DNA of 64,000 nucleotides from a virus. Within the stretch, counting starts at the first letter, position 1. Each line of letters begins with the position of its first letter. Under the pieces are notes generated by a model, which was not told the origin of the DNA, made no database searches, and was given only the letters and a program-made list of their open reading frames with translations. The translations under genes were made by a program, and so were the position numbers. The DNA is taken from the IMG/VR virus record IMGVR_UViG_3300012036_000005, positions 1 through 64,000 of that record; one strand, written 5' to 3'. Shown here piece by piece: positions 6,807 to 61,483 of this stretch.

Positions 6807-6835
6807 ACTATAGCAGATGTTAGAGGTTTTGTCAA
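6807..6835 (-). promoter_or_regulatory. Sigma70-type promoter for rIIB
   Basis: TTGACA (6835-6830), 17-bp spacer, TATAGT (6812-6807). The -35 lies within the hairpin at 6818-6844. Confidence 0.85.
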
Positions 6836-21677: not shown

Positions 21678-21703
21678 ATCTTAACGCATACACAAAAAAT
21701 TAA

Positions 21704-21777
21704 TGTAACCGTAATGATATTGTAACAAAATTATGTTATAGTATCTTTAAATAAAGTCGTAATAAGATACTTTATTT
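21704..21777 (+). promoter_or_regulatory. pstS upstream region
   Basis: TGTAAC occurs at 21704 and 21721, before TATAGT at 21738. A second inverted repeat, AAATAAAGT/ACTTTATTT, lies at 21749-21777. No good -35 hexamer is present, which would fit activator-dependent control, for example by host PhoB; the pho-box match is weak. Confidence 0.4.
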
Positions 21778-40500: not shown

Positions 40501-41204
40501 TGTTTGATTACACTCATCAATATAGTGCTCGGATAGTTATAAATGATAAAACTGAAGCAGATGAATATTATCATACAGACGGTAATACTTATGTCGAAGC
40601 CCGAAAAAACTCGGAATATTCGTTAGAACTAGCCAATAACTCAACTGAAGTAGTATTAATGGTTCCTGCTATTGATGGTCTTTCGGTTATTGACGGTCAA
40701 CCTGCTGGATTAAGTTCTCCAGGATATATTGTTAAACCTAATTCAAGTATGCAAATAACAGGTTGGCTTAAAAATAATAAAGAAGTTGCTCGTTTTGTAT
40801 TTTGGGATAAGGATAAATCTTATTCAAACATGACTGGAAGAGGAACAGAAAATACTGGTGTAATTGGTATTTTAATATTTCGTGAGAAACCATTAGATAT
40901 TACCTTTCCTAAATACGTTGGATGGACTGCTTCTGCTTCTGCTTCTGCTAATACGCAGTTAAGAGCTTCGTCGGTATCAAATTCTGTTAATGATACAGGT
41001 ACAGGACACGGAAGACTTGAGGAGTTTCATACAAATCAAACTTTCTTTGAAAAACGTGATCCAAATCATCCGGATTCTCAAATTGTATTGTATTATGATA
41101 CAAGCAAAGGATTGGAAAGACGCGGAATAACTTTGAGATATAAGAGCACATATGCTCCGGATCCTTTTCCATCTTCTCCTGGTTATATCAAAAAAAGTCG
41201 TTGA
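40500..41204 (+). CDS. Conserved protein paired with the VWA gene (234 aa)
   Basis: YVEARKNSEYSLELANNS, VPAIDGLSVIDGQPA and MQITGWLKNNKEVARFVF resemble a widespread uncharacterised bacterial protein. C-terminal part is Ser/Pro-rich. Coupled to VWA by TAATG. Confidence 0.8.
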   Translation: MFDYTHQYSARIVINDKTEADEYYHTDGNTYVEARKNSEYSLELANNSTEVVLMVPAIDGLSVIDGQPAGLSSPGYIVKPNSSMQITGWLKNNKEVARFVFWDKDKSYSNMTGRGTENTGVIGILIFREKPLDITFPKYVGWTASASASANTQLRASSVSNSVNDTGTGHGRLEEFHTNQTFFEKRDPNHPDSQIVLYYDTSKGLERRGITLRYKSTYAPDPFPSSPGYIKKSR

Positions 41205-44834: not shown

Positions 44835-44859
44835 GAGTGGGGACAGAGTGTCCCCACTC
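44835..44859 (+). terminator. Hairpin between hsp20 and clpS
   Basis: GAGTGGGGACA/TGTCCCCACTC, perfect 11-bp stem with a 3-nt loop. Only a weak U-rich stretch (ACTTTAT) follows, so partial termination is likely. Confidence 0.6.
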
Positions 44860-56186: not shown

Positions 56187-56217
56187 AAGGTAAGACGAGC
56201 TTTGCTCGTCTTACCTT
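56187..56217 (+). terminator. Strong terminator
   Basis: AAGGTAAGACGAGC/GCTCGTCTTACCTT, perfect 14-bp stem, 3-nt loop; the following TT begins the next -35. Confidence 0.85.
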
Positions 56218-57950: not shown

Positions 57951-58310
57951 ATGATATATCTTATAAGGAATATAAAAACAGGTGAATGGCACAAACGCGG
58001 ATATGCCGGGTATGAATGGAAGACAATGCCACACCAAAGCTGGCAAACTGGTGATTACAAGCGTGCGGTAGAAGAACTAGAAAGTGTTGGGTTTGATACG
58101 GGAGAGATTGTACTCTTTGGAATTGAGAATGTGATTCCTGTTGAACAATCAATTCAAGATCAAAAGAGATATGTCTGTAAACTACTTGAAGAGTATGTTC
58201 CTTACGAGGAAGCTGCTAAAAGAGACATTGATGCTATGTCTCAAAAAGATTACAAAAAATGGAAAGAAATACGCATAAAACTTAAGAGTCAAGACGCATT
58301 TCCAGGTTGA
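57951..58310 (+). CDS. Hypothetical protein (119 aa)
   Basis: Start set at ATG 57951. WHKRGYAGYEWKTMPHQSWQ, then a helical C-terminus. Unrecognised; ends in the -35 of the nadM promoter. Confidence 0.78.
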   Translation: MIYLIRNIKTGEWHKRGYAGYEWKTMPHQSWQTGDYKRAVEELESVGFDTGEIVLFGIENVIPVEQSIQDQKRYVCKLLEEYVPYEEAAKRDIDAMSQKDYKKWKEIRIKLKSQDAFPG

Positions 58311-58334
58311 CGAATATAAATAAAAGTGTATAAT
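58307..58334 (+). promoter_or_regulatory. nadM promoter with embedded late box
   Basis: TTGACG (58307-58312), 16-bp spacer, TATAAT (58329-58334). The spacer contains TATAAATA (58315-58322), so early and late polymerases could both use it. Confidence 0.75.
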
Positions 58335-58342
58335 ATAAGAGC

Positions 58343-58392
58343 TAAGGGATAGACCCTAACGCTATACAACAAGCAAAGGAGTTTTGCTATGA
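58343..58392 (+). promoter_or_regulatory. nadM leader: two hairpins shared with nadV
   Basis: Hairpin 1: AGGG-ATAGA-CCCT (58345-58357). Hairpin 2: AGCAAA-GGAGT-TTTGCT (58372-58388), with the Shine-Dalgarno GGAG in the loop and ATG one nucleotide after. 25 nt at 58368-58392 are identical to 60071-60095. Confidence 0.75.
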
Positions 58393-59450
58393 ATAAAGAA
58401 TATGATCTACTCGTCTTTATTGGACGATTTCAACCCTTCCATAATGGACATAAAAAAGTAATTGACCGAGCGCTAGAACTAGCCAATGATGTACTAGTTC
58501 TAGTTGGCTCTTCAAATCGAGGCCGTGAAGGCCGGCATCCTTTTACATTTGCAGAGAGAAAATTTATGATCGAATCATGTTATTATCATGATGAGATTGA
58601 TTATGCTCTCCATGTAAACTCAATTAACGATTATACATACAATGATAATCGATGGATTAGACAGGTCCTTGATCAAATTGAATCAGCAAAGGAAGAACTA
58701 GATCTCCCTAAAGATGCTCGAATTGGACTAATTGGTTGTGAAAAGGATAAGAGCAGTTTCTATCTGAAGTTGTTTCCAACTCTTGAAAATGTTGCAGTTG
58801 ATTACTCAGACAAGATTAATGCAACAGATTTGCGTCAATTGTATTGGACATATGGTATTTACAATCATTGGCGAGATACCGGAGCTCAAGGTTCTACATT
58901 GAAAGAGTCTGTTCCTATTGGAGCCTTTGATTTTCTTAGTGATTTTTTGAAGACAGAAGAATATTCTAATTTGGTCGAAGAAGTTAAGTTTATCGAACAG
59001 TATAAAATCAGTGTTCAAAAGTATCCTCGAATTGAGCACACAGTTGATGCAGTAGTTGTACAGAGCGGACACATTCTTCTTATTCGTCGCCGTTCTGCAC
59101 CTGGAAAACACAAATGGGCTCTTCCAGGTGGATTTATTCATCAAGATGAACGTCTTGAGGATTCAATGATTCGAGAACTACGAGAAGAAACTGGTATTAA
59201 AGTTCCTGAAGCAGTTCTTCGAGGATCAATAAAGAATAGCAAGTGTTATGATGATCCACACAGATCTGAACGTGGTCGTCTTATTACTCAAGCATTTCAT
59301 ATTGCACTTCCTCGAGATACTACATTGCCGAAGGTAAAGGGTATGGACGATGCTGACAAAGCTAAATGGCTACCCCTTAACGAACTAGAACCAACAATGA
59401 TGTTTGAAGATCATTTCTTTATCATCGACGACATGCTTGGAGGTGTGTAA
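58389..59450 (+). CDS. nadM: Bifunctional NMN adenylyltransferase/Nudix hydrolase (353 aa)
   Basis: Residues 1-180: GRFQPFHNGHKKVIDRAL, with the (H/T)xGH site, and GREGRHPFTFAERKFMI form the NMN adenylyltransferase (NMN + ATP to NAD). Residues 210-353: GGFIHQDERLEDSMIRELRE then ETGI is a perfect Nudix box (ADP-ribose pyrophosphatase type). Similar to NatV-like phage enzymes. Works with NadV downstream. Confidence 0.95.
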   Translation: MNKEYDLLVFIGRFQPFHNGHKKVIDRALELANDVLVLVGSSNRGREGRHPFTFAERKFMIESCYYHDEIDYALHVNSINDYTYNDNRWIRQVLDQIESAKEELDLPKDARIGLIGCEKDKSSFYLKLFPTLENVAVDYSDKINATDLRQLYWTYGIYNHWRDTGAQGSTLKESVPIGAFDFLSDFLKTEEYSNLVEEVKFIEQYKISVQKYPRIEHTVDAVVVQSGHILLIRRRSAPGKHKWALPGGFIHQDERLEDSMIRELREETGIKVPEAVLRGSIKNSKCYDDPHRSERGRLITQAFHIALPRDTTLPKVKGMDDADKAKWLPLNELEPTMMFEDHFFIIDDMLGGV

Positions 59451-59683
59451 TGGAAGCAGCTATTGAATACCTTAAAAAAGAAGGCTTTGTATTTGCAGAG
59501 ATTGTCGACAACGAGTCAATTTATCTAAAAGGTAATATTGCCGTGTTAATTGAACCTGCTGACGAGTACAATACAGCCTGGGCAATAGGTAGTGCCCTGC
59601 GCAAAGGCTATGACTGGAATATTTCAGGAATAGATGGGAATAATTACCTTGTTGATGTATTCGAGGAGGTGTTGGATGACTGA
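59450..59683 (+). CDS. Hypothetical protein (77 aa)
   Basis: Small alpha/beta protein (YLKKEGFVFAEIVDNESIYL), TAATG overlap with nadM behind GGAGG. Unrecognised; between nadM and nadV. Confidence 0.78.
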   Translation: MEAAIEYLKKEGFVFAEIVDNESIYLKGNIAVLIEPADEYNTAWAIGSALRKGYDWNISGIDGNNYLVDVFEEVLDD

Positions 59684-60014
59684 TTATTGGGATTTACAGA
59701 AGAAACAAGTAAAACTTCGAGGTGAATTAGATGCTGTCGAAGAAAAGCTAAAAAGCGCCAAACAGGCACTTACTGAGAATCCAATTTTTCTTGTTGCCGA
59801 AGCTTTGCACAAACAACTTTGTCGTCATAACCATACAGACGGTTGTGCTTGGTACTACGAAAAATGGGAAACCCCTGGCGCCGAACGTATGAGATGGGTT
59901 AACATTGCAAGAAGAGTCATACCGTTGCTTAGACAGGATCCTGGTCCGGATGCACAGGATCAAACCGAATATATTGTGAAGCTGATCGACGCAGCAACCG
60001 GAAATTACACTTGA
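59676..60014 (+). CDS. Hypothetical helical protein (112 aa)
   Basis: Start set at ATG 59676 behind GAGGAGG. A coiled-coil N-terminus (KLRGELDAVEEKLKSAKQAL), then LCRHNHTDGCAWYYEKW. Unrecognised. Confidence 0.8.
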   Translation: MTDYWDLQKKQVKLRGELDAVEEKLKSAKQALTENPIFLVAEALHKQLCRHNHTDGCAWYYEKWETPGAERMRWVNIARRVIPLLRQDPGPDAQDQTEYIVKLIDAATGNYT

Positions 60015-60039
60015 CACAAGAGGTGACAAGTGCTATAAT
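60011..60039 (+). promoter_or_regulatory. Sigma70-type promoter for nadV
   Basis: TTGACA (60011-60016), 17-bp spacer, TATAAT (60034-60039): full consensus. Confidence 0.9.
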
Positions 60040-60046
60040 ATAAACA

Positions 60047-60095
60047 ATAGATGATAGACATCTATTTTAAAACAAGCAAAGGAGTTTTGCTATGA
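60047..60095 (+). promoter_or_regulatory. nadV leader: two hairpins shared with nadM
   Basis: Hairpin 1: ATAGATG-ATAGA-CATCTAT (60047-60065), same loop as nadM but a different stem. Hairpin 2: AGCAAA-GGAGT-TTTGCT (60075-60091), identical to nadM, presenting GGAG in its loop. Confidence 0.75.
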
Positions 60096-61483
60096 TTACA
60101 GATAACATTCTACTGATGACGGACAGTTACAAAGCGTCACATTTCCTACAATACCCAAAGGGTACTGAACGAGTAAGTTCGTACATTGAAAGCCGAGGCG
60201 GAAAATGGAACCGTACAGTTTTCTTTGGATTGCAAATGTTCCTCAAGCAATATTTGTCAAAGCCAATCACTCAAGAAATGATTGACGAAGCTGAGGAATT
60301 TTGGACAGCACATGGTGAACCTTTTAATCGTGATGGATGGATGCACATTCTAAACAATCACGAAGGTCGTCTTCCGATTGAGATCGAAGCTGTTCCAGAA
60401 GGAACAGTGGTTCCAACTAGTAATGTACTTGTCCAATTGGTCAACACTGATCCAGAAGTTCCTTGGCTAACTTCTTTTATGGAAACTGCATTGCTTCGAG
60501 CAGTTTGGTATCCAACAACTGTTGCCACTAACTCTTTCTCTGCTAAGGAAGTTATCTATCGTGCATTGCAGGAGACAGCAGACGATCCTGATGCAGAGAT
60601 TGGATTTAAGATGCACGACTTTGGTGCACGAGGAGTTTCTAGTCGAGAATCTGCTATGATTGGCGGTGCCTCGCATTTGGTAAACTTCTTGGGTACTGAT
60701 ACTGTTGAAGGGGTTCTTGCTGTTCGTAAGTTTTATGGAGAATCAATGGCAGGATTTTCAATTCCTGCAAGTGAACATAGCACTGTTACTTCTTGGGGTG
60801 GACCTCGAGGAGAAGTAGATGCAATGCGCAACATGGTCAAGCAATTTGGAAAACCGGGCGCACTTGTGGCTTTTGTATCAGACAGCTATGACATCTACAA
60901 TGCCACAAGCAACCTCTGGGGCGACACGTTGCTTGAAGAAGTCAAAGCAAGCGGTGCCACTATTATTGTGCGTCCTGACTCTGGAGATCCAACAGTTGTT
61001 CCAATCGAAGTAATCGAACTCCTAATGGAAAAGGTTGGTTATGAAACTAACTCAAAGGGATACAAAGTCCTACCGAGTTACTTCCGTGTTATTCAAGGCG
61101 ATGGTATTAATGTTGATACCATCAAAGTTATCCTTGATAAGATGAAGGAAAAAGGATTGTCAGCATCAAACATCGCGTTTGGTCAAGGAGGAGGACTTCT
61201 GCAACAACTTGATCGAGATACACTCAAGTTTGCAATGAAGGCTAGCTCAATTCAGATTAATGGTCGGTGGAATGACGTCTACAAAGATCCAATTACTGAC
61301 ATAGGCAAGCAGAGCAAGCGTGGTCGACTTTCACTAATTAAAAACGGTGAAGAATTTCGTACTGTGAGACGCGAGGATGCAGCAGGCGGAGAGCAAATGC
61401 TTGAAACTGTATACAAGAACGGTCGAATTCTTAAGACGACTAATTTTGCACAAATTCGTGCTCGAGCAGCATCTGCAATCTAA
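60092..61483 (+). CDS. nadV: Nicotinamide phosphoribosyltransferase (463 aa)
   Basis: Makes NMN from nicotinamide and PRPP. Blocks include LMTDSYKASHFLQYPKGTER, MHDFGARGVSSRESA, IIVRPDSGDPTVVP and FGQGGGLLQQ, the NAMPT active-site regions. With NadM it completes nicotinamide to NAD. Full length for the family; terminator follows. Confidence 0.96.
   Translation: MITDNILLMTDSYKASHFLQYPKGTERVSSYIESRGGKWNRTVFFGLQMFLKQYLSKPITQEMIDEAEEFWTAHGEPFNRDGWMHILNNHEGRLPIEIEAVPEGTVVPTSNVLVQLVNTDPEVPWLTSFMETALLRAVWYPTTVATNSFSAKEVIYRALQETADDPDAEIGFKMHDFGARGVSSRESAMIGGASHLVNFLGTDTVEGVLAVRKFYGESMAGFSIPASEHSTVTSWGGPRGEVDAMRNMVKQFGKPGALVAFVSDSYDIYNATSNLWGDTLLEEVKASGATIIVRPDSGDPTVVPIEVIELLMEKVGYETNSKGYKVLPSYFRVIQGDGINVDTIKVILDKMKEKGLSASNIAFGQGGGLLQQLDRDTLKFAMKASSIQINGRWNDVYKDPITDIGKQSKRGRLSLIKNGEEFRTVRREDAAGGEQMLETVYKNGRILKTTNFAQIRARAASAI

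Follow-up and report, generated by a model that had tools for sequence, protein, structure and literature searches.

A two-hairpin leader recurring before the NAD genes of phages, a putative phage-specific cis-regulatory RNA

NAD+ depletion is a major bacterial defense, and NAD salvage is encoded by many phages. No study on the expression control of phage NAD genes was found in the searched literature. The window analyzed here covers positions 1 to 64,000 of a virus record of 100,552 bases and carries two such genes behind closely similar leaders, which raises the question of whether NAD synthesis is under a common control at the RNA level. The nadM gene (positions 58389 to 59450, plus strand) encodes a 353-amino-acid bifunctional NMN adenylyltransferase/Nudix hydrolase with the Pfam domains CTP_transf_like and NUDIX and with matches to phrog_395, to NCBIfam NF003786 (above the cut-off), and to PDB entries 2qjo/2qjt. 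The nadV gene (60092 to 61483, plus strand) encodes a 463-amino-acid nicotinamide phosphoribosyltransferase (Pfam NAPRTase and NAMPT_N, phrog_448, NCBIfam NF006629). A small open reading frame (ORF) of the uncharacterized family phrog_12218 (59676 to 60014, plus strand) lies between them.

The sequences and the minimum-free-energy (MFE) folds bear out the two-hairpin plan that a sequence-only reading had proposed for both leaders. Hairpin 1 of nadM (58340 to 58363, plus strand; AGC..AGGG-AUAGA-CCCU...GCU) consists of the inner stem AGGG/CCCT, the loop ATAGA at 58349 to 58353, and an outer AGC/GCT helix which had been missed, and it is matched by the covariance model R1 with 36.4 bits. Hairpin 1 of nadV (60046 to 60066, plus strand; AAUAGAUG-AUAGA-CAUCUAUU) has 8 bp and the same loop at 60054 to 60058, with a z score of -4.8 when folded alone and an R1 match of 53.3 bits (E = 9.5e-11). 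An identical loop on differing stems is confirmed. Hairpin 2, AGCAAA-GGAGU-UUUGCU, is identical at both genes (58372 to 58388, within the R1 match of nadM, and 60075 to 60091, both on the plus strand) and carries the Shine-Dalgarno sequence GGAG in its loop as described. The start codon had been placed one nucleotide after it and in fact adjoins it with a spacer of 0 nt. The 25 nt reported as identical between the leaders (AACAAGCAAAGGAGTTTTGCTATGA) are indeed so, and the 17-mer of hairpin 2 occurs just twice in the 100,552-base record with up to two mismatches allowed. From the start of loop 1 to the AUG, the distance is 40 nt for nadM and 38 nt for nadV. The MFE of each leader is -11.2 kcal/mol and corresponds to exactly the two hairpins, with z scores of -1.5 and -3.5 against shuffles; the folding energy of a single leader is weak evidence, and the comparative evidence is overwhelming. 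R1 gives exactly two matches in the 100-kb record.

The different stems of the two hairpins 1 had been read as compensatory change, and across related leaders 13 of 13 base pairs covary. R1 was built from 52 sequences with 13 base pairs; in this alignment, double changes occur in every pair, and the covariation score is 1.107 versus 0.195 for shuffled data. Pairing cells amount to 96.4%, versus 51.8% after shuffling and no more than 48% after sliding, a percentage that is inflated because the sites were chosen for their stems (at least 5 and at least 4 bp), the unbiased measure being the set of 280 leaders described below. The alignment was made gap-free by trimming the linker or padding it with N to 7 nt, and its linker statistics were not used; a first MAFFT alignment had broken up stem 1 on its 3' side. 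A recent duplication of the leader was also rejected as the sole cause of the similarity within the window: the stems differ, and the loop and the plan persist over distant phages. Among IMG/VR relatives of nadM and nadV, hairpin 1 is found with entirely different stems and the loops AUAGA, AGAGA, AGUGA, and AAAGA.

In the consensus, stem 1 has about 7 bp and stem 2 about 6 bp, the AUG lies at the end of stem 2 or a few nucleotides off, and the end of loop 1 is 20 to 27 nt from GGAG in 53 of 53 sites, mostly 20 to 25 nt. Loop 1 follows R-D-N-G-(U)-A on a stem of free sequence, with the variants AUAGA (mostly with G-C closing), AGNGA (C-G closing), AAAGA, ACAGA, and AAUAGA, and it may be read as a GNRA-like loop preceded by one additional purine. 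The few invariant bases of the 52-sequence alignment are A..GA of the loop and the Shine-Dalgarno sequence. In certain hairpins, an inner stem of 3 bp is combined with an internal loop that is symmetric and A-rich. The jumbo phages XbC2 and K64-1 (L227 and L230, respectively) carry a GNNGUA hexaloop in hairpin 1 before both nadM and nadV, and their Shine-Dalgarno hairpin is CTAAG-GGAGT-CTTAG; R1 misses such hexaloop variants and wide-spaced ones (G004, G006, K64-1, and XbC2).

The recurrence of the element was measured in several ways. In 280 distinct leaders selected by protein similarity alone, with no stem required, the loop 1 heptamer is present in 37%, versus 3.9% of random windows, and its flanks pair at 77% of positions, versus about 40% when shuffled (the top of 500 shuffles being 46%). 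When the hairpin is defined less strictly, 39% of the leaders of nadM and 51% of those of nadV are positive, versus 2.5% of random windows. In a blind, gene-independent scan through 2.9 million viral contigs, the pattern GATAGAC-N(8-38)-AAAGGAGTTTT had 91 distinct sites. Of the 41 sites whose stem has 6 bp or more, 37 precede nadM or nadV, versus 0 of the 25 stemless ones. The four exceptions precede PHROG1843 (L104, by similarity to L034), phrog_33851 (L146 and L214), and another small ORF (L216), whose leader is nearly identical to that of L146. Run over whole phage records (50 records, 6.7 Mb), R1 gave 82 matches, two per typical genome, with downstream genes assigned from annotated coordinates in four of the records (W01 to W04): 37 precede nadM, 36 nadV, 2 pnuC, and 2 each PHROG1843, phrog_33851, and phrog_12218, and one 23-bit match is unrelated and false. 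In 48 further records picked by their NadV protein, mostly outside the model, R1 gave 48 matches, before nadV (26), nadM (19), nadA (1), and two copies of a 118-amino-acid ORF beside nadM. One 24-kb record has four copies of the leader, before pnuC, nadM, nadV, and phrog_33851. The common RNA-level control of NAD synthesis suggested for this locus is supported by this massive recurrence, which across diverse phages is specific to nadM, nadV, and pnuC and, in one case, to nadA. Other parts of these genomes rarely carry the element, whose association with NAD genes is near-exclusive.

The same scan pattern was run on 84,980 bacterial and archaeal genomes. Among the matches listed, a stem of at least 6 bp is present in just 2 of 116 distinct sites, which is chance level, and a bacterial origin was rejected; one real nadM leader is among them (L599, position 2714, minus strand), on a Rhodospirillales metagenome-assembled contig that is probably a phage or prophage. 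The element thus appears to be viral and phage-specific. This distribution bears on the idea that the leader is recognized by a host RNA-binding factor, such as a CsrA-like protein or ribosomal protein S1. The GGA in a hairpin loop does resemble CsrA sites, but the element leaves no trace on bacterial genes among the matches listed, and the hosts of the phages that carry it include Rhodobacter, Xanthomonas, and Synechococcus, a diversity which argues against one host factor, so that this explanation is very improbable.

Both leaders of the window lie directly downstream of near-perfect sigma70 promoters, TTGACG-16-TATAAT for nadM (58307 to 58334, plus strand; sigma70-like, 11 of 12 consensus positions) and TTGACA-17-TATAAT for nadV (60011 to 60039, plus strand; a perfect 12 of 12). 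Hairpin 1 of nadM starts about 6 nt past the -10 box and would therefore be at the 5' end of the mRNA. About 35% of leaders have a -10 box shortly before hairpin 1, versus 6 to 10% of controls, which indicates that hairpin 1 is often 5'-terminal. These positions, and the exposure of the Shine-Dalgarno sequence by hairpin 2, are what a passive expression cassette would offer, in which a 5'-terminal hairpin stabilizes the mRNA and a Shine-Dalgarno hairpin fixes initiation with no regulator involved. However, the sequence of loop 1 is conserved, a promoter directly upstream is absent in about two-thirds of leaders, and the element is nearly confined to NAD genes, other genes of the same DNA being without it. 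Hairpin 2 (a Shine-Dalgarno sequence in a stem of at least 5 bp) is present in 55% of 91 unbiased nad genes versus 5% of 389 others at the same loci, and in the window at 2 of 2 nad genes versus 2 of 50 others, which weakens the alternative of an optimized initiation cassette raised in the sequence-only reading; a general phage cassette would serve many genes per genome, whereas R1 finds exactly two matches in the 100-kb record. A passive role is therefore unlikely. The least probable explanation of all is that hairpin 2 serves as a substrate for a RegB-like endonuclease, which would cleave the GGAG of Shine-Dalgarno loops. RegB favors GGA in unpaired form, with a constraint on the fourth G (PMC3014915), and hairpin 2 offers such a GGAG; nevertheless, hairpin 1 and the specificity for NAD genes are left unexplained, and PF10715 matched 0 of 33 motif records, a weak count since the search had no positive control that responded.

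Rfam searches of the window at gathering thresholds, and at permissive ones of the leader of nadM together with ten related loci, returned nothing relevant, NAD+-I and NAD+-II included, and a pnuC leader of the same class (L291) had no Rfam match either. In the searched literature, the nad genes of phages are not described as having a leader, a hairpin, or an RNA motif, and a survey of viral NAD systems mentions NadM and NadV and not an RNA leader (PMC9503650). The kind of element, a structured cis-regulatory leader, is known; the family, its viral restriction, its gene set, and its reader appear to be new.

The main rival to an operator read by a protein is a small riboswitch, in which the two hairpins and the linker would make up an aptamer. 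Its ligand (NAD+, NMN, nicotinamide, or ADP-ribose) would, once bound, hide the Shine-Dalgarno sequence of hairpin 2. The gene set of nadM, nadV, pnuC, and nadA, which covers NAD synthesis and transport, fits the sensing of NAD, and loop 1 and GGAG are tightly spaced, 20 to 25 nt apart in most leaders. Aptamers of two hairpins with very few conserved bases do exist, as in the guanidine-II (mini-ykkC) riboswitch, which consists of two small hairpins with nearly all conservation in the loops; the phage leader resembles it in having two small loop-conserved hairpins and differs in its loops and genes, those of guanidine-II being ACGR loops and guanidine genes. However, just three loop bases are invariant outside the Shine-Dalgarno sequence, the linker varies in sequence and length, and no conserved linker or pseudoknot partner of loop 1 is visible by eye in the alignment. 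Loop 1 also varies by phage lineage instead of being fixed as by a ligand, and Rfam gave no match at either threshold. The NAD+-I riboswitch (nadA motif) likewise has two tandem stem-loops before NAD genes, the second with the ribosome-binding site (PMC7297122, PMC7708056), but it occurs in bacteria and not in phages and requires a ACANCCCC bulge and an internal loop (PMC7297122). Neither leader of the window has this bulge between coaxial helices, the 52-sequence alignment does not contain it, and the NAD+-I covariance model had no match in the same Rfam searches. The NAD+-II riboswitch (pnuC motif) also precedes the NAD-pathway gene pnuC and overlaps the ribosome-binding site (PMC7749635, PMC10085692), whereas its three helices, pseudoknot, A5 strand, and many strictly conserved bases are not seen in the phage leader, whose consensus is two simple hairpins. 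Direct sensing of a ligand is thus a possible but distinctly less probable reading.

Structure and gene association mark the leader as a predicted phage-specific cis-regulatory RNA of NAD metabolism. The reading favored here, with a probability of roughly one-half, is that it acts as a translational operator whose reader is encoded by the phage, NadM being the best candidate for this protein. The regulon would comprise nadM and nadV, joined in certain phages by pnuC, nadA, and small uncharacterized genes. The phage protein, most likely the NadM enzyme itself, would bind hairpin 1 (and hairpin 2), and the bound leader would block ribosome access, which would place feedback on NAD synthesis at the level of translation. 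The few invariant bases suit a protein-bound hairpin. In the boxB hairpin of lambda, bound by N for antitermination at the nut sites, a GNRA-like pentaloop (GAARA) likewise sits on a free stem; the phage NAD leader is similar in its pentaloop, free stem, and proposed phage-protein reader and unlike it in role, loop, and location. The model for the proposed mechanism is T4 DNA polymerase, which represses its own mRNA through the gene 43 operator of T4 and RB69, a hairpin about 40 nt upstream together with the ribosome-binding site, with a loop that varies with the cognate protein (PMC3014915). The NAD leader shares with this operator the phage mRNA hairpin about 40 nt upstream, the overlap with the ribosome-binding site, the short loop that varies among phages, and the free stem. 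In contrast, the gene 43 operator has a UAAC loop and serves a single gene, that of a DNA polymerase, whereas the NAD leader has the loop RDNG(U)A, a regulon of several NAD genes, and a second covarying hairpin around the Shine-Dalgarno sequence.

Several correlations point to such a reader. The loop class agrees between the nadM and nadV leaders of the same locus in 48 of 58 cases (shuffled mean, 25.9; maximum of 2,000 shuffles, 35) while the stems differ, and in one clade C-AGNGA-G is common to nadM, nadV, pnuC, and PHROG1843; agreement within loci is what a co-evolving trans-acting reader would predict. On the NadM tree, the AGNGA class requires 5 changes versus 11.7 when shuffled. Hairpin 1 precedes nadV in 33 of 69 genomes with NadM versus 1 of 17 without it, that one being dubious (Fisher's P = 0.0017), and a match to phrog_395 (NadM) was found in 46 of 46 motif records searched, the one in G044 spanning the adenylyltransferase half only. 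Loop agreement and NadM co-occurrence are correlations from which shared ancestry is not fully removed. Against NadM as the reader counts that it has no known RNA-binding domain and that its homologs are plain NMNAT-Nudix enzymes. Many NadM phages without hairpin 1 (e.g., KVP40, phiM12, and Lacusarx) and nadV leaders that keep the Shine-Dalgarno hairpin without hairpin 1 (the phage group L372 to L375, L391, and L400) also count against a NadM operator. Three phages (G018 to G020) have nadM with the leader and no NadV match, which indicates that the regulon is not always a pair.

It is likely that this phage-only RNA family defines an NAD regulon that is read by NadM or directly by an NAD metabolite. 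If so, viruses would possess a pathway-wide post-transcriptional feedback that is used when host defenses drain NAD+, a phage metabolic regulon coordinated at the RNA level by a small and easily tested RNA. The element may also serve as a marker for NAD-related genes in viral dark matter. It ties three uncharacterized PHROG families to NAD metabolism, and under the same reading these would be new NAD-pathway or antidefense genes. The phrog_12218 protein of the window, with the motif LCxxNHTDGCxWYYE, is a candidate NAD-pathway protein because its relatives in two other phages (G040 and G041) carry the two-hairpin leader themselves. PHROG1843, whose protein has no Pfam match, follows a leader with an AGAGA loop in L034 (3268 to 3906) and an AUAGA loop in L104. 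The small phrog_33851 protein (WRVxGEDPNCDxGGHH) has the leader in three phages (L214, L146, and G064, 21694 to 21739). In a 360-kb phage (G076, 36200 to 37178; L635), the leader precedes the quinolinate synthase gene nadA (Pfam, 2.1e-84), a phage-borne gene of the de novo NAD pathway.

The 118-amino-acid ORF mentioned above belongs to an uncharacterized family and lies just upstream of nadM with its own copy of the leader (G117, position 6824, and G118, position 41073; L634 and L633). Elsewhere in the window, an array of 10- to 12-nt repeats (CTCTAAGGTG/CTCTATAGGATG/CTCTAAAGAGGA) occupies positions 265 to 486, near the start of the record, and an exact GC-rich 26-nt direct repeat is present at 671 to 696 and 835 to 860 in this AT-rich genome. 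Very strong intrinsic-terminator-like hairpins of 14 and 11 bp are found on the minus strand, opposite to the majority of the genes, at 56187 to 56217 and 44835 to 44859, respectively.
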